64,000 nucleotides of DNA from Pyropia yezoensis (lineage: Eukaryota; Rhodophyta; Bangiophyceae; Bangiales; Bangiaceae): contig CM020619.1 in NCBI GenBank assembly GCA_009829735.1, forward strand, positions 30,282,063 through 30,346,062, in the 5' to 3' direction. A program made the translations under genes and the position numbers. Every line of letters starts with the position of its first letter. The first letter of the stretch is position 1. The notes beneath the pieces are model-generated. The model was given only the letters and a program-made list of their open reading frames with translations, ran no database searches and was not told where the DNA came from. Of the stretch, positions 365 through 64,000 are shown piece by piece.

Positions 365-3300
365 ATGAATACTGCTGCGGCTGCACCCTCGCCGAGTCAG
401 TACTGTCTGCCTCCGGCACGGGACGACGTCGCGTGGCGGGATCTGATGCGGCCTTGTGGGGGGATCTTGCAGCTGGTCCAGAGCCCAGTCAAGGTCCCGA
501 TCGGGCGTGTCCGCACGATCAGGCTCGAACTGGTGCGGGTATGGGTGTATTGCGGCTTGCACTACGTGCGGGCGCCGGTGGACACCACAGCCTGCACGCC
601 GCCAGTCCCTGAGGACCTGCCGCCGTTGGACCAGCCCAACACGAACTTTTCCTTCGTCCCCCTCAAGCGGGACAAGCCGTTTTCGCGTCCGTCATTTTCT
701 GTTCACATTTTTTGCGCCCCCGCGGGCAGAGATATCCGTGGAATTGATGGGCGGTGGGTGCTGGAACTCACCGCGCCAGTACACAGCGCTTCCCCGCTGC
801 GGTTTTGTGCTGGGTCAAGGGAGCAAGCGGAGCAGTGGGAGCGGCAGCTGCGTATGCGCGCGGCCCCGCTGACGGTCGTCTGGTCCTGCCATGTGGGGAT
901 GCCTGTTGAAGGGAACACCAGTGGCGATGGCGTGGTGAGAGCCGAAGTGGTTGGACCGAGCAGCCTGGCCGCATTGAGTGCTATGCACCGCGCCGCACGT
1001 CATGTGCTCAGCGATGATGTTCTGGTGGGCGTGGCGGGCATGGCGACGGCATTTTCGTCGGAGGCGGTACACAGGCTTGCCGTTGGCGCTGGGCCTGTGG
1101 TGGGGATGGCATTTGCTGGGCTGGGATTTTTTCTGCGCGTTCTCGTGGCTGTGCAGTCGACGTCAGGAGCTGCACTCAGCGTGGCGGAAGAACTGAACAA
1201 CCTGCGCGGCATGCTATGGAACGACCTTCTTCCGGCCCTTCGAGATTTGCCGGACGATGGGAGCGTGGACGTGAACGGCCTGATGAACCGGCTGGGTGAT
1301 CTGATGGCGGACGCGGAGGTGATCTCTGGGCAGCTGCATCATCTGGTGCGGTCACGTTCGGCGCGGCTGCGGACGGCCGTTTCATCTGCCCTTCACGTCC
1401 AGGAGGTGGAGCCCGTTTTAAGGGACCAACTCTTGGACTGTCGGCGCCGTGCCGACGAAGTTTGGCGGCTCTGTCAGCTAGCCCTTGGTCGTCATGGCAT
1501 CAGCGTCGCTCACAAGACGCAGCAGACCGTCATTGCTGCCGCTGAGCAGACGCAGCAGGTGATCATTGAATCTCGGGAGCAGATCCATAATGTGGTGAAC
1601 TCATCTACGGAGGTGATGCGACAGGACTTCACACGGATTGCTGAGCGGGTGCGGCGCAATGACAGGGCGGCTGCGCCTCACTCGATCGCGCACGATGCTG
1701 CACAGGAACTCCCTCTCCTTCCTCCCAACGTCTACATTAACTGGGAGGACCAGACACAAGCTGCATCGCGGCTGTACTCAGCCGTAATTAAGGCGGACTC
1801 GACTGCATGCGCGGCGCTTGGGGTGCGCGGGATGGGAGGGGTGGGGAAGACGCTTTCTTGCCTGCTCGTCGCGCACCGAATCGCTCATCAGGCGGATGGT
1901 CAGAGTCGGTTCCCTGACAGCGTCCACTGGGTGCAGCTATCTTCGGAGGTTGGCCCTGCTGATGTGACGCAACGGGTGTGCGATCTGGCGACGGGCCTGT
2001 CAGGTGACGCCGTAGTGGCCAAGAACTTAGCCGGTGCGGTAAGGCGTCTGTACGAGGTGATGCGGGACAAATCTTGCCTCGTCATTGTCGATGACGTGTG
2101 GGAGGATCGGTGGGCCGCCACATTTCTTAGAGCTATGGGAGCGGCGTCCAGCTCGTGTTTGCTGATTTCGACGCGTCAGCACGACATTGCCACTCGGGTC
2201 GGCATGGCTGAGCCCGTTTCAGTGGACGTTCTGGAAGGAGCGCAAGCGGCAGGCGTGCTCTCGGCGCACGCCGAGGCTCGTGGCATGACGAAGGCGGATA
2301 AAACCGTCGAGCTTGTGGAAGAGGCCGTGTGCTTGTGCGGTGGACTGGCGCTGGCGTTGGCCGTCCTGGGCTCACTAGTGCACAGTACCGGGTGGGCCTC
2401 CGCTGTGAAGCTGGTTCGTGATCAGCGCGAACTTCTCTTGAAGACATGCCTGGCCCCGGAGAACAGCTACGACCTATCCTTGCGAGCCTGCCTTTCCGCC
2501 AGCTACATGGCCCTGGGGACGGAGGTAGATGAGAAACTGCTCTGGCGCGGTCGCTTCAAGGCTCTCTGTGTGGTACAGCCCAAGGAACGGCTGCCGTTGT
2601 CAACTCTGGGGGCGTTATGGGAAGAGGACGAGGGGCAGGTCGTGTCAATTGCTAAGATCCTGCGTAATCGGTCTTTAGTGACTCTGGAATGCGACAAGGG
2701 CGACAACCCTATCTGCCTTGAGTTGCACGATCTTGTTATTGCGTTTCTTGCGGGACCGGAATTGATCGACCGCGCCGGGCGGGAGCGAGTTCACGTCACT
2801 CTGGTTGCCAACACCTGTGCGCGCAGTGGCGTCCATGCTGCTGGTTCTATGACGCGCGTGGGAAGCAAGCAAGTGGCTGTGCGGGCAGTGTGGGAGCTGA
2901 CCTCCGACGGCTTTACGGAGCGCGCGCTTCCGCGGCTTCTTAATGCAAGTGGTGCTGATGCACGTGAGGAGCTAGGCATCCTGTTGTTTAACTGGAGATT
3001 CATTGCGTGGCGGGTGAAGGTGGGGGGTGGCGCTTGTGGGGTCTATCGCGAAGACGGCCGTCTCTTCCACAAGTGCTGCGGAGGGGTTGGGGAGAGCGTG
3101 CTGGACCGCGTGGCTACTTTGGTGGAGGGGGGGCTGATGGGGCTTCATTTACTACTGCCGGCGCGCTTGCAGCAGGCCGCGTGGGAGGTGATGGAGCAGA
3201 CCTCATCGCGGCAGTCTTTCGCCGGTGACAGTGTAGCGGCACCATTCTTGGACTACCTGGGCAGAACTGCACGGTCCTACATTGAAAAACCTGCTGTTGA

Positions 3301-5557
3301 GCTGATCGGAGAAGCACGTCTGGGACAGGTTCAAGAGCGTCGCGTGCTTGGCTGCGAGGGCGAGTCAACGTGCGTGTGCAGCTTCATCAGCGCCCTTGGT
3401 GAGCACGCACTGTGCGTTGGCACAAATGACGGCCGTATCGAAGTTTGGCAAGAGCAAAACGGATCTCGTATGACGGTGCTGGATGGCCACAAAGACGAAG
3501 TAACGTGTTTGGTGGTGGTTGGTAGTGGCGCAGATGGACGCGGTGGGCGGTTGGTGTCGGGATCAAAAGACCATACTGTGCGTGTGTGGGACGTAGTGCG
3601 CGGTACATGCAAGATGGTGCTGAACGACCACAGCAGCTGGGTGACCTGCTTGGCGGTGGTGGATGGCGGCGCAGGCGGTAGCCGCGGGCGGCTGGTTTCG
3701 GGGTCTTTGGACATGACTTTGCGGGTATGGGACATAGAACGCCGTGAGTGCGAGGAGGAGCTTCTGGGCCACACGGGCATGGTGACCTGTTTGGCGGTGG
3801 TGGACGACGGCGCAGGTGGCCGCGGACTGTTGATTTCGGGGTCTTCGGACAAGACTCTGCGGGTGAGGGACTTAGAACGCGGCACTTGCAAGGTGCTTCC
3901 GGGCCATACGGGTCGGGTGACGTGCTTGGCGGTACTGGACGGCCATGCTGGAGGTGGCGGCGGGCGGTTGGCGTCAGGGTCTATGGATAAGACTGTACGG
4001 GTGTGGGATGTGGTTTCAGGCAAGTGTCTGAAGGTGCTACGGGGCCATTCCCGCGGGGTGGAATGCTTGGCGGCGGTGGGCGGCGGCGCTCCCGGAGTCG
4101 CCGGGCGGGTGCTATCTGGGTCTTGGGACGAGACTGTGCGGGTGTGGGAGGTGGAAGGCGGAACGTGTCTGTGGGTGCTGCGGGGCCACACCGGCATGGT
4201 TTCGTGCTTGGCAGTGGTGGGCGGTGCCGCAGGCGGAGGCGGCGAGCGGTTGGTGTCGGGTTCCTCCGATATGACTTTGCGGGTGTGGGACGTTGAGGGT
4301 GGAACGTCGCTGAGGGAGCTGCGGGGCCACACCCACGTGGTTACATGCTTGGCGGTGGTGGCCGGTGGTACCGGCGCAGGCGACCAGCGGTTCGTGTCGG
4401 GGTCAAGAGATAGGACTCTGCGCGTCTGGGACGTAGACGGCGGCGAAGGCAACTCCGCGCTGCGAGGCCACGCCAGTTCAGTGACTTGCTTGGCGGTGCT
4501 GGACGGCGGTGCAAGCGGAGCCCGCGGGCAGCTGGTGTCGGGGTCCGTGGACAAGACTGTTCGGGTGTGGGACGTGGAACGCGGCACGTGTGAGAGCGTC
4601 CTGGTAGGCCACAAGAAGGGGGTGACCTGCTTGGGGGTCGTGGGCGGTGGCTCTGGCGGTGGCTCACAGCGGGTGGCGTCGGGGTCCTTTGACAATACGG
4701 TGCGGGTGTGGGACGTGGTGGGAGGCACGTGCGTGAAGGTCGTAGACATCAGCAGCAGCTGCATGGCCTGCTTGCCGGTCGTGGTCGGTGGCCCTGGCGG
4801 CGGTGCCCAGCGGTTGGTGTGCGGGTCTCTCGACGGCACTGTGACGGTCATTGATGTGGAGCGCGGACAGTCGACGACGCTCGTCAGCAGACACAACACC
4901 GAGGTGACCTGCTTCGAGGTGATAGACGGCGGTGCAAGCGGAAGCGGGGCACAGCCGGTGTCCGGGTCAGCAGACGGGACTCTGCGGGTGTGGGACGTGG
5001 AACGCGGCACGTGCAGGAAGGTCCTGGGAGGCCACAAAAACATGGTGACCTGCTTGGCGGTCGTGGGCGGCGGCTCTGACTGCGGCGGCCAGCGGTTGGT
5101 GTCGGGCTCTCGGGACAAGACTGTGCGCGTGTGGGACGTGTTGGGAGGCACGTGCGTGAGGGTGCTGGGAGGCCACAGCAACTGGGTCACCTGCTTGGCC
5201 GTCGTGGGCGGTGGCTCTGGCGGCGGCTACCAGCGGGTAGTGTCGGGGTCCCGGGACAAGACAGTGAGAGTGTGGGAGATGAACGGCAGCTATTCTTCAA
5301 CGAAGCTGCCAGGTCTGGGCTCTGGCATCAAGGAGATTGCCGTCATTCGCGCCGCTGGGTCCGCTGCCTCGGCTATTGACGCATCCTGTGTCATCTTGGA
5401 CGATAGTCGGAGATCTATTCTCTTGGACGGCGGTGGGAACGCGCTGCGACACCTTCCAGCTCCGTCAAGCGTGAGCAAGGTTTGCGTTCTTTCTCGCGGT
5501 CGTGTTGCGTGGGGGACTGGAACCGGTCAGGTTTTTGTGGGACAGCTCTTCTCTTGA
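365..5557 (+). CDS. STAND/NB-ARC NTPase with C-terminal WD40 repeats (NLR-like)
   Basis: Predicted 1730-residue single-exon protein starting at the ATG at 365 (context GGCCATGA). The N-terminal ~165 residues end in a PH-like terminal helix (EQAEQWERQLRM). They are followed by a helical region with a hydrophobic stretch around residues 235-265 and a probable coiled segment rich in Gln and Glu to about residue 450. The NB-ARC core is plain: Walker A GMGGVGKT (residues 489-496), Walker B CLVIVDDVW (571-579), a sensor-type LLISTRQ, and a GLPL-like CGGLALALAVLG. From about residue 1015 to the end there are 13 clear WD40 repeats of about 46 residues plus degenerate ones at each end. The family acts as signalling ATPases that oligomerise when the repeat domain senses a ligand, as in Apaf-1, fungal HET-E/HNWD and plant NLRs. 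A role in immunity or allorecognition here is inference. The frame is intact throughout. Confidence 0.93.
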   Translation: MNTAAAAPSPSQYCLPPARDDVAWRDLMRPCGGILQLVQSPVKVPIGRVRTIRLELVRVWVYCGLHYVRAPVDTTACTPPVPEDLPPLDQPNTNFSFVPLKRDKPFSRPSFSVHIFCAPAGRDIRGIDGRWVLELTAPVHSASPLRFCAGSREQAEQWERQLRMRAAPLTVVWSCHVGMPVEGNTSGDGVVRAEVVGPSSLAALSAMHRAARHVLSDDVLVGVAGMATAFSSEAVHRLAVGAGPVVGMAFAGLGFFLRVLVAVQSTSGAALSVAEELNNLRGMLWNDLLPALRDLPDDGSVDVNGLMNRLGDLMADAEVISGQLHHLVRSRSARLRTAVSSALHVQEVEPVLRDQLLDCRRRADEVWRLCQLALGRHGISVAHKTQQTVIAAAEQTQQVIIESREQIHNVVNSSTEVMRQDFTRIAERVRRNDRAAAPHSIAHDAAQELPLLPPNVYINWEDQTQAASRLYSAVIKADSTACAALGVRGMGGVGKTLSCLLVAHRIAHQADGQSRFPDSVHWVQLSSEVGPADVTQRVCDLATGLSGDAVVAKNLAGAVRRLYEVMRDKSCLVIVDDVWEDRWAATFLRAMGAASSSCLLISTRQHDIATRVGMAEPVSVDVLEGAQAAGVLSAHAEARGMTKADKTVELVEEAVCLCGGLALALAVLGSLVHSTGWASAVKLVRDQRELLLKTCLAPENSYDLSLRACLSASYMALGTEVDEKLLWRGRFKALCVVQPKERLPLSTLGALWEEDEGQVVSIAKILRNRSLVTLECDKGDNPICLELHDLVIAFLAGPELIDRAGRERVHVTLVANTCARSGVHAAGSMTRVGSKQVAVRAVWELTSDGFTERALPRLLNASGADAREELGILLFNWRFIAWRVKVGGGACGVYREDGRLFHKCCGGVGESVLDRVATLVEGGLMGLHLLLPARLQQAAWEVMEQTSSRQSFAGDSVAAPFLDYLGRTARSYIEKPAVELIGEARLGQVQERRVLGCEGESTCVCSFISALGEHALCVGTNDGRIEVWQEQNGSRMTVLDGHKDEVTCLVVVGSGADGRGGRLVSGSKDHTVRVWDVVRGTCKMVLNDHSSWVTCLAVVDGGAGGSRGRLVSGSLDMTLRVWDIERRECEEELLGHTGMVTCLAVVDDGAGGRGLLISGSSDKTLRVRDLERGTCKVLPGHTGRVTCLAVLDGHAGGGGGRLASGSMDKTVRVWDVVSGKCLKVLRGHSRGVECLAAVGGGAPGVAGRVLSGSWDETVRVWEVEGGTCLWVLRGHTGMVSCLAVVGGAAGGGGERLVSGSSDMTLRVWDVEGGTSLRELRGHTHVVTCLAVVAGGTGAGDQRFVSGSRDRTLRVWDVDGGEGNSALRGHASSVTCLAVLDGGASGARGQLVSGSVDKTVRVWDVERGTCESVLVGHKKGVTCLGVVGGGSGGGSQRVASGSFDNTVRVWDVVGGTCVKVVDISSSCMACLPVVVGGPGGGAQRLVCGSLDGTVTVIDVERGQSTTLVSRHNTEVTCFEVIDGGASGSGAQPVSGSADGTLRVWDVERGTCRKVLGGHKNMVTCLAVVGGGSDCGGQRLVSGSRDKTVRVWDVLGGTCVRVLGGHSNWVTCLAVVGGGSGGGYQRVVSGSRDKTVRVWEMNGSYSSTKLPGLGSGIKEIAVIRAAGSAASAIDASCVILDDSRRSILLDGGGNALRHLPAPSSVSKVCVLSRGRVAWGTGTGQVFVGQLFS
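3470..5278 (+). repeat. Tandem WD40-coding repeats, about 140 nt per unit
   Basis: Thirteen consecutive units encode a GH-x4-VTCLAVV strand followed by SGS-x-D-x-TVRVWDV. At the DNA level the phrases encoding VTCLAVV and VRVWDV recur almost unchanged, while the residues just after GH and around SGS-x-D vary. The units resemble each other far more than typical WD40 blades within one protein do. This suggests recent amplification or gene conversion within the array. Confidence 0.85.
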
Positions 5558-6960: not shown

Positions 6961-8198
6961 GTGCTTTGCTGCAGTTTGTCCAGCGCGTTTAACTGACTAT
7001 TTCGGATGGGCCTCTGTTAAATCAGAGGCGTCGCTGGGAAAATGTTCGAGAAGACGCGCCCTTGCACGCAGGAGTTGTCTTCGTTTTTTTTCAGCTGTTC
7101 ATGATGGACAAGCGGGTTGTGCAAGGGTCTTTGCTGTCCTGAGTATGAACGTCTTAACTTCTCAGAAAGACTGTTTGAAGCACTCTCTTCCCGTCTGTCT
7201 GTCCGATAATGAGCTTGGTCATTGGAGCAGCCGGTGGCAGTTTCGAGACAATGGCGCGTTAGCATTTGTTAAAACTGACTTAATATCTCGGTCTCGGTCC
7301 CGCAGGATAGAAGTCAGCAATAAGAACAACAACAGTTGAGCACTACTAGCAAACATGGGCGACAGACCCTCCTCACTGAGGCGGTAGTGAGCAGCGACTA
7401 TGACGCGCGCGCGAGGGTGCTGTTGCAGCGGGTGGCGTCGGTTCTACGCGTCGAGTGGCCGCTGGTGGCGGCGATTGAACTGGCTTTGGCGGTTCACCTG
7501 GCCGCCTTGCACTCGGCGGCTGCGGACGCGGGGGCGGCCATCGACGCTCCGACAGAGGGCGGGGAGGGGGAGGCACCCGCAAGGGCGCGCTCGTCGCTGA
7601 CGCGCCCGCGCCACGCACCACCGTCGACCGACGCGCTGCCCGCCCCGTCGTCAACAGTGGCGTCCCCTTCAGATAAAGGAATCGCCACAAAGAAGTTGTC
7701 ACCCCACAGGCGGCCAAGCATCTTCTCAACGTCCACCTTGTTCTTCGCGTACATCTGAGCAAAGCGGGTCAGCGTGAAGGCCCAGCCGTGGAGACCGGCC
7801 GAGAAGGCAATGGTACCCTTCTCGGGATACACCTGAACGTCCCCAACCTTCTCGTCCTGGTACGTGGCCATTATGACGTTGGCGTTCTCAATGATGCGCT
7901 GGATGCTCTGGTACATCTCATCCGGCTCCAGCTGAAGCTCCATGAAAGAGCGGTCCCGCTTGTTGATGGTCATCACCGGGATGATACGCTCCGTCAGCGC
8001 CTGTCGCAGCACCATTGCGGTCTGCACGCACACACCTTCCACCGAATCCACCACCACAAGGGCGCCATCCGTAACACGGAGGGCGGCCGTCACCTAAAAG
8101 CTGGAGTCGATGTGTCCCGGCGAGTCGATCAGGTTGATCAAGAACTCACGGCCGTCGGCGTCCTGCAGCAACTTCAGATCCGGGTCGAAGTTAAAGTA

Positions 8199-8227
8199 CA
8201 GTCGGTAAGCAAAAATCATTGCCCGAT
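8199..8227 (+). repeat. Tc1/mariner left terminal inverted repeat
   Basis: The 29-bp repeat begins CAGTCGGTAAGC directly after the target TA at 8197-8198. It matches the reverse complement of 9502-9530 with about three differences. Confidence 0.9.
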
Positions 8228-8420
8228 CCGGAAACGAGCCTGTCGGCTGCCCAACTTCGCCGCGGCACACGCTCAGAGCGGCGAATCCTGTATCAGGAGG
8301 GGGGTGATTTTTGACCAGTGCAGCTCCATTTATGCCCTTCCGGCCGCTAGAAAGTCCTATTCCAGGGGCCCTGCTCCACTGGTATACCTCCCGACAGGCA
8401 CGATAGTCGCCCAACGCACA

Positions 8421-9436
8421 ACGGCCACCCTCAGCCAGAAGGCCACCATTTTCGAGCTCGCCACTAGGCGTTATTCCAACGGAGCCGTCGCCGTCGCCCT
8501 CTGCATCTCTGTCACCCGTGTCTCCTGGTTTGCTGCCAAGGAGCGCAAGGACGGTATGGCCGAGCAGCCAGAGACGCGGGGGCGCCCGGCTCTTCTGGGC
8601 CCCCGTGACGTGCGCGCTCTTGTGCGGCTGGCCAACGCCATCTGTTATTTGTCGGCCGCCGCGCTGACTCGGGTGTTCAACCGTGGGCGCCCCGTGCCCG
8701 TCTCTTGCTGGACGGTGCGGCGCGCCCAGTGCGCGCAGGGCTTCAAGTCCGCCATCCCCGCGCGCAAGCCCTTCGTGTCAAACAAGAACCAAGCCAAGCG
8801 TCGGGCGTGGGCCCGCACCCACATGCACTGGGGGGCCGAGTATGACGCGGTTCTCTACACCGACGAGAGCAGTCTTAAAGTGCGCACCGTCAACAAGCGC
8901 GCTCGTGTCTGGCGGCGCTCCGGGGTGCGCTTTATCCTCGCCTGTTTCCAACCTACCTTCACAAGCGGCCGGCAGTCCATCATGGTGTGGGGGGGCTTCT
9001 CGGCGCGTGGTGGCACCCCCCCGGTGCTCTTCAAGCGCTCCATGAATGCGACCCAGTATGAGGGGGTCTTGGGCGACTCCATCTTCCACCACATTGTGGC
9101 GTAATTTGGGGCGCCTGACGCCGCCTGGCTGCAGAAGGACCTTGCCCCATGCCACGCATCCAAGAACAGCCGCGACGTCAAGGCCCAGCTCGGGTGCAAG
9201 TGCCTTCCCTGGGTAGGCCAGAGCCCAGACCTCGACCCGATTGAGAATGCATGGGACGAGCTCAAGCGCCGTCTGGCGGCCCGGGAGGAGCAGCCCGGGA
9301 ACAAAGAGGACCTCTATAAGGCCCTGAGTGAGGAGTGGGAGGCCATCCCTGACGCCTTCTTTGCCCGCCTGGTGATTCGATGAAGCGCCGTGTGCGGTGT
9401 GTGATTGCCGCCAAGGGCATGGGGACTAAATACTGA
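8421..9436 (+). pseudogene. Tc1/mariner DD34E transposase, one stop and one frameshift
   Basis: The N-terminal HTH-like part begins around FELATRRYSNG (8451) and has no upstream ATG; the first in-frame ATG is at 8556. The catalytic core shows LYTDES (first Asp), MVWGGFSARGG, LQKDLAPCHAS (second Asp) and QSPDLDPIENAWDELKRR (Glu), with exactly 34 residues between the second Asp and the Glu. An in-frame TAA at 9102-9104 separates the first and second Asp. After LVI near 9378 the frame shifts, and the typical C-terminus RCVIAAKGMGTKY ends at a TGA at 9434-9436. The two breaks make this copy inactive unless it is suppressed. Confidence 0.9.
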
Positions 9437-9501
9437 GCGGGGGATCCAATGGGGCAACGTTTTTCTTGGTGCACATTAAATCGACTGGAGGTTCGAATCA
9501 A

Positions 9502-9530
9502 ATCGGCCAATGATTTCTGCTTACCGACTG
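9502..9530 (-). repeat. Tc1/mariner right terminal inverted repeat
   Basis: Reverse complement of the left repeat, ending GCTTACCGACTG immediately before the TA at 9531-9532. Confidence 0.9.
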
Positions 9531-9553
9531 TACAGGTTGATACCAGTGGACTT

Positions 9554-9786
9554 CTACGGGAGGCTCAGGACAAGCACGTCACAGAGCACACAAACAACAC
9601 AACAAAACGAGGCCGAGAGAAAAAGGAACCACACCACAAGATACAGTCAGACGTCTGTCTGCCGTAGTGGAGCAAGCAAAGTGCCCCCCCACGGCGGACA
9701 GTCTCTGACTGATCGACGGCCAAACGTCGGTGACGACAGACGACCAATGCGTTCTATGGTCATCCAGGCGTGCAGACAAAACATAA
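9554..9786 (-). other. Retained intron of the EF-2 pseudogene with altered 5' splice site
   Basis: EF-2 reads ...CITI up to 9787 and resumes with KSTGINLY at 9553. The 233 bp between ends CCGTAG before the AAG codon, a good 3' splice site. It starts TTATGT where a red algal or fungal-like consensus would be GTATGT. A single G-to-T change at the donor is the simplest explanation. The inference rests on the exact phase-0 fit of the flanking codons. Confidence 0.65.
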
Positions 9787-9994
9787 AATCGTAATGCAGC
9801 GATCCTGCTCGTCCTGGCGCGTGTCCGTCAGACGGGCGTCACCAGCATTGGCCATGGCAATGATACCGGCGGCCACGACCAGGGAGTCCGTCAGCGTCGA
9901 CTTGCCATGATCGACATGAGCAAACAGGCATGTTCCGGATGTTGTTCTTCTTATCCATGATCTCGCGCATCTGGTCCACCGTGAAGTTCTCCAT

Positions 9995-10589
9995 GATGGG
10001 CAACGGGTGGGGAGAAACGCAGCCGCAGCTGCAAAGACGACGCCCTCTGTGGGCGGAAGGAGGACGAGCAGGAAAAGGGGGATGGGGGATGAACTAGTCT
10101 CACAAAGCAAGGACCACCGCCCTCCAGCCACCACTGACCGCGGCGACGGAAGCAACGCGCGTTGTGACAAACGGCGCTTAGCGAAACGGCCTTGAATGGC
10201 GCAGTACGCGAGGGTCTGCAGCCTTGTAGAGCCACATGCGGGGGGCCCCGCCCCCCGCGGCCGTGTGCCGCACGACGACGCGGGCATCGGCCACGTTGCA
10301 ATCGCCTTTGGTTGGCACCCCGACTCCCCGGCGCGTCCCGCGGGGGAATGTTGTTGCCCTCCGGCGGGCGGTGGTGGTGGTGGTGGCCGCGGCGGCAGTG
10401 GCGGCGTTGTCGGCGGGGGTGTGGCCCGCCGGTGGGGGGCCCGGTGGCTCACCGCTGGTTCCCCTTCATCTCTCCGACCCCCCGGTGACCGCCAGGCAGT
10501 TGGCCCACGTCCGCCTTGCCAGCCAGACCCCGTCTGGCGCCAACTTTCCCGTGCCAACCCCCGCGGCCGTCTCCCTCCCCCCGCCGCTT
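9995..10589. other. 5' flank of the EF-2 pseudogene
   Basis: GC-rich sequence upstream of the EF-2 start. It probably represents the ancestral leader or promoter region, but no promoter motif was recognised. Confidence 0.35.
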
Positions 10590-10932
10590 CTCCCCTCCGC
10601 ACTTCTCCTGCCCCCTCCCCACTTCTTCCCCCCCCCCCCACTTCTCCCTTCCTCCACTTCTCCCCCCCCCACTTCTCCCCCCCCCCACTTCTCCCCCCCC
10701 CCACTTCTCCCCCCCCCACTTCTCCCCCCCCCCCCCCCCCCACTTCTCCCCCCCCCACTTCTCCCCCCCCCACTTCTCCCCCCCCCACTTCTCCCCCCCC
10801 CTTCTCCCCCCCACTTCTCCCCCCCCCCACTTCTCCCCCCCCCCACTTCTCCCCCCCCCCACTTCTCCCCCCCTCCACTTCTCCCCCCCTCCACTTCTCC
10901 CCCCCTCCACTTCTCCCCCCCCCCACTTCACC
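10590..10932 (+). repeat. C-rich minisatellite, unit about ACTTCTCCCCCCCCC
   Basis: About twenty copies of a 14-18-bp unit, ACTTCT followed by a variable C run. Some carry TC interruptions (CCCTCCACTTCT), which form a homogeneous subset at the 3' end. Frames on either strand read as Pro/Ser or Gly/Glu repeats and are not genes. The C-run regularity suits i-motif formation on this strand and G-quadruplex formation on the other. Confidence 0.9.
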
Positions 10933-10999
10933 CCCGAGGGTAAGCCGCCAGAGTTCCTCATCTGCCTTAATAACACCGTGCGCCACGATCGATGGGTTT

Positions 11000-61930: not shown

Positions 61931-64000
61931 ATGGCCACTTCTACCAGACTATTGCACCTTCCCAGTATATCCCCGCGCCAACTAGCCCGCTATTTTGCGC
62001 GCACCACCTTACATCACCCCACGTCCATGCGTGCCACCCCCCCCACGTCCGTGATGCGACTTCCCCCTCCTCCATCCCCTGCGGCCGTTGCCGCGGGTGA
62101 GCCCGGCGTCGGCACTTTCTTGTACCCCGCAGCGGCCGAGGTGAAGACCGCCGCGTTTGCCACGGGCACTCTACTCGAGACGGTCACCCCCTTGCATGGT
62201 GTGCGGGTGCAGACGGCGCGCGCACTCGCTAGTGGCCGACCAGCGGGGCACATTCGGTCGCTCTCGTCCTGGCGGACGTCTCTTTTTGGCGTTCCACCAG
62301 CGGCGGTGACGTTGGCGGGTCGGCGACGGGTGTCTGCACCGCTGGTCCAGGGGGCAGGACGGGGGGCTAGGACGGGTGTTTCGGGCGGCGGGCTGTCGTC
62401 TCACGGCACGTTCCGAGCGCGGCCATTGGCGTCGGTGGCGGCGGACGGGACGAGCCCGGTCGGGGAGATGGAGGACTCGGACGATGAGATGCCTCAGGCG
62501 CGCTCCGCCGGCGGGGCGGGCATCTACCTCAACGCGGGACCCCTTCGGTCGGGGGTGGGAGGGCGGGTTCGCCGTGGCATGAGCACAGCAATGTCGACGG
62601 CAACCACGGCTGCGGCGCCTCCCGTGGAGGAGGGTGGCGCCTATGCGGGGCAGATCTTTTGCAACCGCAACCTCAACATGGCCAAGATTACTGCCGTCGG
62701 GTTTGGTACGTGACGCGTCGGCGGTCGTGGTCTACGTTTGGAAACATGCAAGCGGCAGGTGTTCAGTGGGTTCTGTCGGTTTGTGAGTGGCATGGGCTGG
62801 TGGGCGGACTCGTCGGTGTGTGGGGGATGACTGGGTGCGTGGACGTGCTAGTGACTTGCCATGTTCAGCAGTCACTGACATACTCTCGAGCTTTTTCCTG
62901 CTGCTCCACACTTTCTGTTATGCTTGGTCGTGGCCTTGTTTTGTGTCTGGTTGGTACCACAGACATGGACTACACGCTGTCGCAGTACAACTCGGAAGTC
63001 TTTGAGATGCTTTCTTTCCAGGGTGCGCTGAACAATCTCGTGACCCGCCTTGGATACCCCGAGGCCCTGCTGGAGCGGAAGGACAGCTATGACCACCATT
63101 ACTTCATCCGTGGCCTGGTGGTAGACAAGGTGCGAGGCAATATCATCAAGATGGACCGTCACAAATACGTCAAAGTGGCGCTACACGGCTTTCGGGCGCT
63201 CAGCAAGGCTGAGCGGGAGACAGTGTACGACCCTACCGAGTCAGCCTGGAACTCTTTCGCTGAGCCAAACTACGCGGTGCTTGACACCATCTTCTCCATC
63301 CCCGACGCCTACCTTTTTGCGCTGCTTATTGACTACAAGGACGCGCACCCCGGAGAGATTACTCAGTCGAACATCCAAATCTACACGGACGTCCGACGGT
63401 CGGTCGACCTTTGCCATCGGGACGGGTGGATCAAGGAGCAAGTAGCAGCCGACCCGTCACGTTTTATTCACGTTGATCCCAACCTCGTACCGATGCTTCA
63501 GCGGCTGCGCCGCTCTGGCCGTAAGATGTTTCTGTTAACCAACTCACTGTGGGACTACACGGAAGTGGTCATGACGTTCCTGTACAACGCGTCAGAGGCG
63601 GGTCGCGATGGCGGTGACTGGAAGGACCTCTTTGACGTCATCATTTGCGGCTCATGCAAACCTGGCTTTCTCATTGACAAGCGTCTTTCCCTGTACCGGG
63701 TGGACGTGGCGTCAGGGCAGCTCGTCAATACGGAAGGTATCATTTACGAGACGGCGGACGAGTACTTGGCAGGTGGCAAGGTATTTCAGGGGGGCAACTG
63801 GACGCACTTGCACCAGCTGCTCAACATCAAGACTGGTTCCCAACTCCTGTACGTCGGCGACCACATGTATTCGGACATTCTGCGGTCCAAGCGGCAGCTC
63901 GGTTGGCGCACCATGCTAGTCATCCCTGAGCTAGCCCACGAGATCAATGTGCTGGCCTCCAACACCACCCAACTGGCGCGCATTGACAGCTTGCGGCACC
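61931..64000 (+). CDS. Cytosolic-type IMP/GMP 5'-nucleotidase (HAD family), 3' end beyond window
   Basis: Exon 1 runs from the ATG at 61931 to 62705 and exon 2 from 62963 to beyond the window. The intron (62706-62962, GTACGT..ACAG) interrupts the codon of the first catalytic Asp. The spliced protein reads FCNRNLNMAKITAVGFD then MDYTLSQY (DxDYT motif, residues 259-263). FIRGLVVDK, AYLFALLIDY, MFLLTNSLWDYTE (motif II), LLYVGDHMYSDILRSKRQ (motif III) and TMLVIPELAHEI follow, as in NT5C2/NT5DC proteins. The family removes phosphate from purine 5'-nucleotides. About 225 residues before the conserved FCNRNLN are extra and Arg/Ser/Pro/Ala-rich; the first ~35 (STRLLHLPSISPRQLARYF) look like an organelle-targeting sequence. 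Confidence 0.92.
62706..62962 (+). other. Intron of the 5'-nucleotidase gene
   Basis: 257 bp, GTACGT donor and CCACAG acceptor, phase 1. Joining restores GFDMDYT. The intron has stops in frame and is visibly T-richer than the exons. Confidence 0.92.

Follow-up and report, generated by a model that had tools for sequence, protein, structure and literature searches.

A STAND-type NB-ARC–WD40 gene of the red alga Pyropia yezoensis and the variable positions of its repeat family

Red algae of the species Pyropia yezoensis, for which Neopyropia is the newer genus name, carry genes that combine an NB-ARC domain with WD40 repeats, and one of these lies near the start of the stretch analyzed here. 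This stretch, hereafter the window, comprises 64,000 nucleotides (GenBank assembly GCA_009829735.1, contig CM020619.1, positions 30,282,063 to 30,346,062). The gene runs on the plus strand from an ATG at 365 to a stop codon at 5555–5557 as a single uninterrupted frame of 1730 residues. Its predicted protein consists, in order, of a beta-rich module, a helical module, a coil-like stretch, the NB-ARC domain, a winged helix, a middle segment, 13 WD40 units and a degenerate end. The features are listed in window coordinates.

365..5557, plus strand: whole gene, single open frame of 1730 amino acids, located from C2:30282427 on in its own genome
395..892, plus strand: beta-rich, putatively PH-like module, residues 11–176 (11-member family alignment, beta-type hydropathy periodicity)
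980..1486, plus strand: helical module, residues 206–374 (12-member alignment, average alpha-type periodicity, low-confidence AlphaFold2 helices)
1097..1153, plus strand: hydrophobic glycine-bearing segment, residues 245–263 (19-mer with a mean hydropathy of 2.23)
1505..1690, plus strand: Gln-rich, coil-like stretch before the NB-ARC domain, approximately residues 381–442 (gap pattern; long helix in a low-confidence model)
1796..2392, plus strand: NB-ARC domain, residues 478–676 (Pfam PF00931, 84.7 bits, cut-off 23.5)
1829..1852, plus strand: P-loop GMGGVGKT (sequence and alignment)
2552..2749, plus strand: APAF-1-like winged-helix domain (PF21296, 29.8 bits, cut-off 27, in a Pfam scan of sub-segments)
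2723..2731, plus strand: LHD (MHD-type) motif (read from the sequence)
2750..3475, plus strand: middle segment between the winged helix and the WD40 array, kept in the family (phmmer matches in paralogues)
3476..5302, plus strand: WD40 array, 13 units of 45–47 residues (about 141 bp each), ends approximate (unit hidden Markov model, Pfam, Tandem Repeats Finder)
5303..5554, plus strand: degenerate C-terminal end of the propeller region (sequence; no unit called by the hidden Markov model)

The NB-ARC alignment of the window protein contains GMGGVGKT, CLVIVDDVW, STR and GGLALAL, and LHD was read from the sequence. We take these to be the P-loop, Walker B, STR, GLPL-like and MHD-like motifs, respectively, and assume for LHD the role of an MHD-type motif. 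The nearest chain in the PDB to this NB-ARC domain is APAF-1 (1z6t, E = 3.7e-10). Pfam recognizes 12 WD40 stretches and the unit hidden Markov model (HMM) 13 units, while Tandem Repeats Finder reports a 423-bp period, equivalent to three units, at 4481–5247. An NB-ARC domain with its motifs, a winged helix and C-terminal repeats are thus all found in one frame; judged by these sequence features, the window protein is a protein of the STAND (signal transduction ATPases with numerous domains) or NLR (NOD-like receptor) type, as a sequence-only reading of the window had claimed. The middle segment of the window gene has no Pfam match of its own, an AlphaFold prediction of the last 750 residues from the window sequence alone reached a predicted local distance difference test (pLDDT) score of 37.9, and an Rfam search of the window returned no matches. 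Antisense to the WD40 array, an open frame of 619 residues occupies 3331–5190 on the minus strand and is probably a by-product of the GC-rich repeat.

A survey of paralogues, proposed together with the sequence-only reading, placed the gene in a family: 18 NB-ARC loci of the Pyropia genome share its helical N-terminal part. PF00931 detects 32 places in the genome, all above the cut-off, and all 32 were taken up with flanks of 10 kb (20 places) or 5 kb (12 places) and sorted by sequence into three groups. Group A comprises the 18 loci sharing the N-terminus of the window gene (L009–L025 and L033, the window gene being L011); the helical part is present in all 18 and at least part of the PH-like part in 17. 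WD40 repeats were recognized by the unit HMM in 17 loci, in a run that did not include L033, for which the Pfam WD40 score is 26.8 against a cut-off of 27. The N-terminus, the NB-ARC domain and the following region share one frame in 12 loci (L009, L010, L011, L013–L016, L020–L022, L024 and L033). The remaining six (L012, L017, L018, L019, L023 and L025) are interrupted or incomplete in this assembly through stops, frame changes, an N gap or a part out of frame, and may be pseudogenes, genes with introns or assembly faults. Because homologous copies recur upstream of the NB-ARC domain across the genome, the N-terminus is not a chance frame.

Group A members form two loose clusters, one with L025, the window gene and L033 at C2 30.09, 30.28 and 30.44 Mb (within 0.35 Mb), and the other with L013, L010 and L009 at C2:1.53–1.93 Mb (within 0.4 Mb). 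L018 (C2:13.26 Mb) and L019 (C3:25.47 Mb) share 99.7% identity across 7 kb and, past the N gap, 99.5% across another 2.5 kb; this near-identity on different scaffolds may reflect a recent duplication or an assembly artefact. A lone PH-like copy lies at C1:16983745–16984125 on the minus strand, with no listed NB-ARC place nearby.

Group B consists of five loci (L026–L030) with a different N-terminus. A Pfam TPR match was found in L026, whose 46-residue repeat period is shared by L027, L028 and L030; the frame of L029 stops within the first repeat, and no Pfam TPR match was obtained for L027 over the 1170 of 1343 residues scanned. The nine loci of group C (L031, L032 and L034–L040) carry TPR-like repeats of 42 residues in seven of the eight loci tested by period (L037 being the exception and L038 outside the test), with Pfam TPR matches in all three loci scanned (L034, L037 and L040). 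An N-terminal trypsin-like peptidase domain scores over the cut-off in L034 and L037 and just under it in L040, and L038 is similar by eye; in the other five loci, the fetched frame extends 104–139 residues before the P-loop, which is too short for a whole peptidase domain. The repeat units of L031, L032, L034–L036 and L039 are nearly identical, with a best three-period identity of 0.75–0.93 in these six of the eight loci tested. These TPR-like arrays are a second candidate family of diversifying arrays in the same genome.

The WD40 units of group A were compared with an HMM built from eight units of the window gene and applied to 15 of the 18 loci, yielding 181 units. L018, L025 and L033 were left out because of gaps or short or degenerate arrays, and one open frame was used per interrupted gene. 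Mean unit identity within a gene ranges from 0.38 (L024) to 0.90 (L009) and lies at 0.71–0.90 in eight of the 15 arrays; for 115 of the 181 units, the closest unit is found in the same gene. In the HET-D and HET-E units of Podospora, four codons, grouped in two pairs on either side of conserved residues at the top face of the propeller, are described as being under diversifying selection (PMC1805685), and a later numbering for the HNWD proteins names seven positions (PMC12222747). Assemblies from Illumina reads are reported to be insufficient for arrays of this type (PMC12222747). The four correspond to columns 8, 10, 31 and 33 of the algal units, and the seven to columns 6, 7, 8, 10, 31, 33 and 40. 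The mapped pairs flank the conserved Val of H-x-x-x-V in the D-A loop and the conserved Asp of S-G-S-x-D-x in the B-C turn, and these anchors support the mapping, as does a spacing that agrees when five additional loop residues are permitted. Averaged over ten genes, the most variable of the 47 columns are 31, 8, 10, 7 and 33, with column 6 moderately variable and column 40 not variable. The columns were permuted at positions fixed beforehand, using the 154 of 181 units that remained after those less than 60% like their gene consensus were dropped. The four positions reached p < 0.05 in 13 of the 15 arrays and the seven positions in all 15; the values for the window array are 0.016 and 0.0027, respectively. 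Altogether, 152 distinct four-residue combinations occur among the 181 units.

Comparison of close paralogues reveals changes in both repeat number and the residues at these positions. Unit numbers differ among such paralogues (14, 13 and 5). L010 and L013, with NB-ARC domains 95% identical, have 14 versus 5 units, and their best-matched units agree at 65% of the four positions and at 86% of the others. The divergence is stronger between L009 and L010, where the NB-ARC domains are 86% identical and best-matched units agree at 88% of the other positions versus 34% of the four. A codon model was run on unit trees of the window gene and of seven of the eight high-identity genes; L013, with four usable units, was left out. 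The replacement rate at the four positions exceeds the array-wide silent rate (p < 0.05) in six of the seven high-identity arrays, with ratios of 2.1 to 10.5, although L012 is only marginal (p = 0.049). Since conversion among repeats breaks the tree assumption of the model, these results serve as support and not as proof. Repeat gain and loss together with contact diversification are apparently visible in this paralogue comparison, and the window array is probably an older, slower member of the family.

The same bias extends to prokaryotes. Prokaryotic genomes scanned with the NB-ARC alignment contained at least 268 relatives, of which the best 80 were kept as 79 loci, and 40 frames among these combine NB-ARC with WD40. 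Twenty-seven of the 40 arrays were testable (eight have under four units and five lack a clear motif), including those of cyanobacteria, Acidobacteriota, Actinomycetota and the archaeon Methanothrix. With units cut by HMM and all columns permuted, a test that still requires a consensus with the WD40 anchors, the four-position bias reached p < 0.05 in all 27 arrays (loci within L042–L117). High diversity at predicted hotspot sites of highly repetitive WD40 proteins had been noted earlier, in a paper in which term searches of the accessible text find neither NB-ARC nor immunity (PMC5587647), and fungal NLRs are reported to contain an excess of internally well conserved repeats (PMC4986451). Since the bias occurs in prokaryotic and fungal arrays, the logic of the sensor appears general and the algal arrays are one instance of it; a bias that prokaryotes share would indicate diversified recognition without pointing specifically to recognition of self.

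An NB-ARC tree was built from 23 algal and 78 prokaryotic rows, group C being left out for falling below the 8-bit profile threshold. One branch sets group A apart (99/90, starred) and another sets group B apart (100/100), and the two groups together are split from all 78 prokaryotic rows (97/96). The 18 NB-ARC domains of group A thus appear to form one clade. The algal N-terminal profile reached a best E value of 0.13 in the 79 prokaryotic loci, a weak test confined to plus-strand frames of loci chosen by their NB-ARC domain, and an equally weak search of prokaryotes with a single peptide pattern found no algal N-terminus.

The two modules that precede the NB-ARC domain differ in character. 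In the first, W14, W50 and W148 (segment numbering) are invariant in 11 aligned family members including the window protein, and the hydropathy periodicity is of the beta type (0.74 versus 0.54 for the alpha type). A PDB profile search with this module gave two matches up to E = 10, one of which is a PH domain (2d9v, E = 0.54) aligned over its end, Trp helix included. In the genome, the PH family PF00169 occurs at four places, none belonging to the family of the window gene. The second module has alpha-type periodicity (0.99 versus 0.66 for the beta type) and contains the hydrophobic segment that the sequence-only reading had pointed out, which holds up: residues 245–263 form the hydropathy peak of the N-terminus, at 2.23 second in the whole protein to the GGLALAL region (2.40). 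In the group A loci with the P-loop in frame, 15 in number, this segment lies 189–262 residues upstream of that loop; in all five group B loci, a hydrophobic segment lies 199–213 residues upstream of it. Profile comparisons between the N-termini of groups A and B gave E values of 0.039, 0.014, 0.012 and 0.011 with probabilities below 4%; because these scores are marginal, shared ancestry is only a suggestion. The Gln-rich stretch that follows is largely an insertion missing from the other 11 aligned sequences.

Searches for a known fold in the helical module gave diffuse results. A Pfam scan of 12 members returned scattered weak matches to seven families, the best at E = 0.015 in one member; NACHT_N matched one of the 12 at E = 0.12. 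A genome-wide NACHT_N search was empty, and control genomes were equally empty, which renders it uninformative. PDB profile matches comprise designed helical bundles, apolipoprotein A-IV, a syntaxin and unrelated enzymes, and the best designed-bundle match (E = 0.0012) is summed over two stretches, each of which alone is above 1. These matches seem to point to helical character and to no family. A PDB search with residues 1–545 of the window protein gave nothing of use (best E = 0.06, a designed protein), nor did PDB searches with the N-terminal profiles of the TPR-type group B.

Taken together, we consider it on balance probable that the product of the window gene is an NLR-type receptor that works inside the cells of Pyropia yezoensis, detects proteins that are non-self or altered self, and acts at a membrane through its N-termini. 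In the resting state, the NB-ARC/winged-helix switch would be held shut. A protein ligand would then bind the top face of the WD40 propeller through the residues on both sides of two conserved ones, Val in the D-A loop and Asp in the B-C turn; the bias at these positions is observed, and ligand binding there is suggested by analogy with HNWD proteins. Nucleotide exchange would allow the NB-ARC domains to assemble into an APAF-1-like ring, as the motifs and homology suggest; that such an ATPase switch assembles on ligand is predicted from homology to APAF-1 and, more weakly, to plant resistance proteins. In the least certain step, the clustered N-termini would meet the membrane, where the beta-rich module may place the ring and the hydrophobic helical module may insert or signal, with cell death or defence as the likely outcome. 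Gain and loss of whole repeats, together with diversification at the contact positions, would let the family keep up with its targets. Variable positions mark the WD40 end as the presumed sensor, and its location marks the N-terminus as the presumed output; a membrane role for the latter is a guess from hydrophobicity. That three NB-ARC+WD40 genes are reported to rise on infection with Pythium (PMC6928737) is consistent with a defence function of the class, which would be putative for the window gene.

Several observations weigh against this reading. At the N-terminus, Pfam found no match to the PH-like part up to E = 10 in 11 family members; residues of about 146–168, where the end helix of a PH domain is expected, show beta-type periodicity (0.93 versus 0.55 for the alpha type); and Pfam scans of family members found no effector family. 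AlphaFold, run on the window sequence alone, gave a pLDDT of 38.3 for residues 1–447, which is unusable as a model. This poor prediction (pLDDT 38) places strands at 57–72 and 131–149, a helix at 152–165, strands at 170–179 and 189–197, and helices from 200 on. Its strands and subsequent helices roughly follow the proposed order of the two modules, and the two strands after the helix would, if anything, count against a PH domain. The PH-like N-terminus of the sequence-only reading consequently retains its invariant Trp residues, its beta periodicity and the 2d9v match, but has neither a Pfam match nor support from periodicity for a helical end. Of the proposed helical, membrane-active effector, the conserved hydrophobic segment and the alpha periodicity stand, but the structure prediction gave no reliable helical-bundle fold and no effector family matched; its membrane activity is putative. 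In the arrays, the mean unit identity of the window gene is 0.54; L016 and L024 fail the four-position permutation test; L023 fails both codon tests; and the window gene has a ratio of 1.1 at the four positions in the codon model (p = 0.65), with no replacement excess. With the silent rate taken from those same four positions, only two of the seven high-identity genes, L014 and L015, reach p < 0.05.

Part of these data would also suit a regulator resembling APAF-1 that controls programmed cell death or development. Its WD40 propeller would bind a host factor in response to an internal signal, and its repeats would be alike through recent duplication; APAF-1 as the closest solved relative, the winged helix of APAF-1 type and the window gene without a replacement excess are all consistent with it. 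One internal ligand, however, hardly explains so many four-residue combinations, and replacements are in excess in six of seven high-identity paralogues, which share the framework more than the contact positions; we regard this regulator as unlikely. A different explanation holds that the four positions are unconstrained surface sites and that repeat identity arises from slippage and gene conversion alone, without selection for diversity. Exposed top-face positions may indeed simply vary freely: the ratio is 0.8–1.5 in seven more diverged arrays, the window array included, and five of the eight genes run have elevated silent-rate estimates at these codons. The high ratios in the six high-identity arrays and the disparity between L009 and L010 make this explanation doubtful. 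Strict allorecognition of the HET-E type, in which allelic variants of a host protein are detected at cell fusion between individuals and the mixed cell is killed, shares the four positions and the change in repeat number with het-d and het-e; considering that prokaryotic arrays have the same bias, which would thus not be specific to self-recognition, it is quite improbable. Finally, a plain WD40 scaffold or a decaying copy, for which the six broken frames among 18 family members might speak, is highly improbable given the intact window gene, its conserved switch motifs and the STAND proteins to which its NB-ARC domain is related; the plain scaffold was rejected on the intact NB-ARC motifs and these relatives.

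The reading as an intracellular receptor bears on how red seaweeds recognize many attackers. An earlier study assigns NBS-LRR (nucleotide-binding site–leucine-rich repeat) fusions to the green lineage and none to Porphyra or Pyropia (PMC6928737). Exon shuffling of ROCO genes has been proposed for brown seaweeds (PMC11378527), and the open literature listings searched contain no comparable diversification proposal for red seaweeds. NLR-type genes with WD40 variation at the HNWD contact positions offer an explanation that can be tested in a cultivated seaweed affected by red rot, and with them the repeat diversification known from fungi would extend to a further lineage of eukaryotes. Should the N-terminal module prove to kill cells, NLRs would gain a new kind of output domain. 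A broader proposal is advanced only tentatively, as possible: red algae may own an NLR class with a new executor composed of a beta-rich membrane-targeting module and a glycine-bearing hydrophobic helical module. A related executor would serve both WD40 sensors (18 genes) and TPR-type sensors (up to five genes), in either case with a hydrophobic segment some 200 residues ahead of the P-loop. Its WD40 form would diversify through turnover of repeats at the four positions that also vary in STAND proteins of fungi, bacteria and archaea, and the four-position surface would be a recognition code across all domains of life.

Elsewhere in the window, an elongation-factor-type GTPase domain on the minus strand is split over two frames at 7497–10983, with profile positions 88–176 at 7497–8090 and 7–58 at 9763–10983. 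Between the halves, a Tc3-type transposase helix-turn-helix match lies on the plus strand (frame 7791–9101), and either a transposon within an intron or a disrupted copy may explain the arrangement. A 5'-nucleotidase family match (376.5 bits) occupies 62659–63999 on the plus strand and continues past the window end.

Among known systems, the closest in taxonomy are the NB-ARC+WD40 genes of Pyropia yezoensis itself, listed in 2019 as putative resistance proteins, with three up-regulated by Pythium (PMC6928737). They share the species and the central and C-terminal domains with the window gene; the accessible text gives domain names only, calls the structures simple and does not contain the term 'n-terminal'. 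Rhodophyte proteins with NB-ARC, winged helix, APAF1_C and WD40, reported in 2022 (PMC8891106), have the NB-ARC domain, winged helix and WD40 repeats in common with the window gene. Pfam, however, did not detect APAF1_C in the window gene, with a trace under the cut-off in L033, and the passages of that paper on these proteins describe no module before the NB-ARC domain. The layout called non-standard by the sequence-only reading is less unusual than it proposed, since the NB-ARC+WD40 combination was already in print for the species and for rhodophytes.

APAF-1 (1z6t and 5juy) is the best solved match across the NB-ARC domain and winged helix, and WD40 propellers are C-terminal in both. In contrast to APAF-1, Pfam found no CARD match at the window N-terminus, and the repeats of the algal family are mutually similar and diversified at set positions. 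Prokaryotic NB-ARC-WD40 STAND proteins, including those of cyanobacteria, have the same central and C-terminal domains and the same variable positions, but the algal N-terminus was not detected in plus-strand frames of their loci at the E value given above. A putative hydrophobic helix and helical bundle before the switch would resemble the effectors of fungal HeLo and NACHT_N, plant RPW8 and MLKL four-helix type. Against these effectors no significant match was obtained, the single NACHT_N match being the one noted above.

The likeness to HET-E and other HNWD proteins of Podospora anserina suggested by the sequence-only reading applies to the sensor: the variable positions are the same, arrays change in repeat number, and the high internal repeat identity is matched in the algal paralogues, although less so in the window array (54% versus over 80% described for HNWD repeats; PMC1805685, PMC12222747). 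Membership in the HNWD family was rejected, as Pfam found no HET match in the N-terminus and the ATPase is an NB-ARC domain (84.7 bits) with no NACHT match. Term searches for red algae in the accessible text of PMC7159879, PMC10907252 and PMC11218826 gave no mention, and partial listings of the open literature, in which subscription journals are mostly not covered, contained no report of diversified WD40 arrays or of a window-type N-terminus in red algae. NB-ARC-WD40 genes of this alga are already known; as far as these listings go, the N-terminal module and the repeat diversification appear new.

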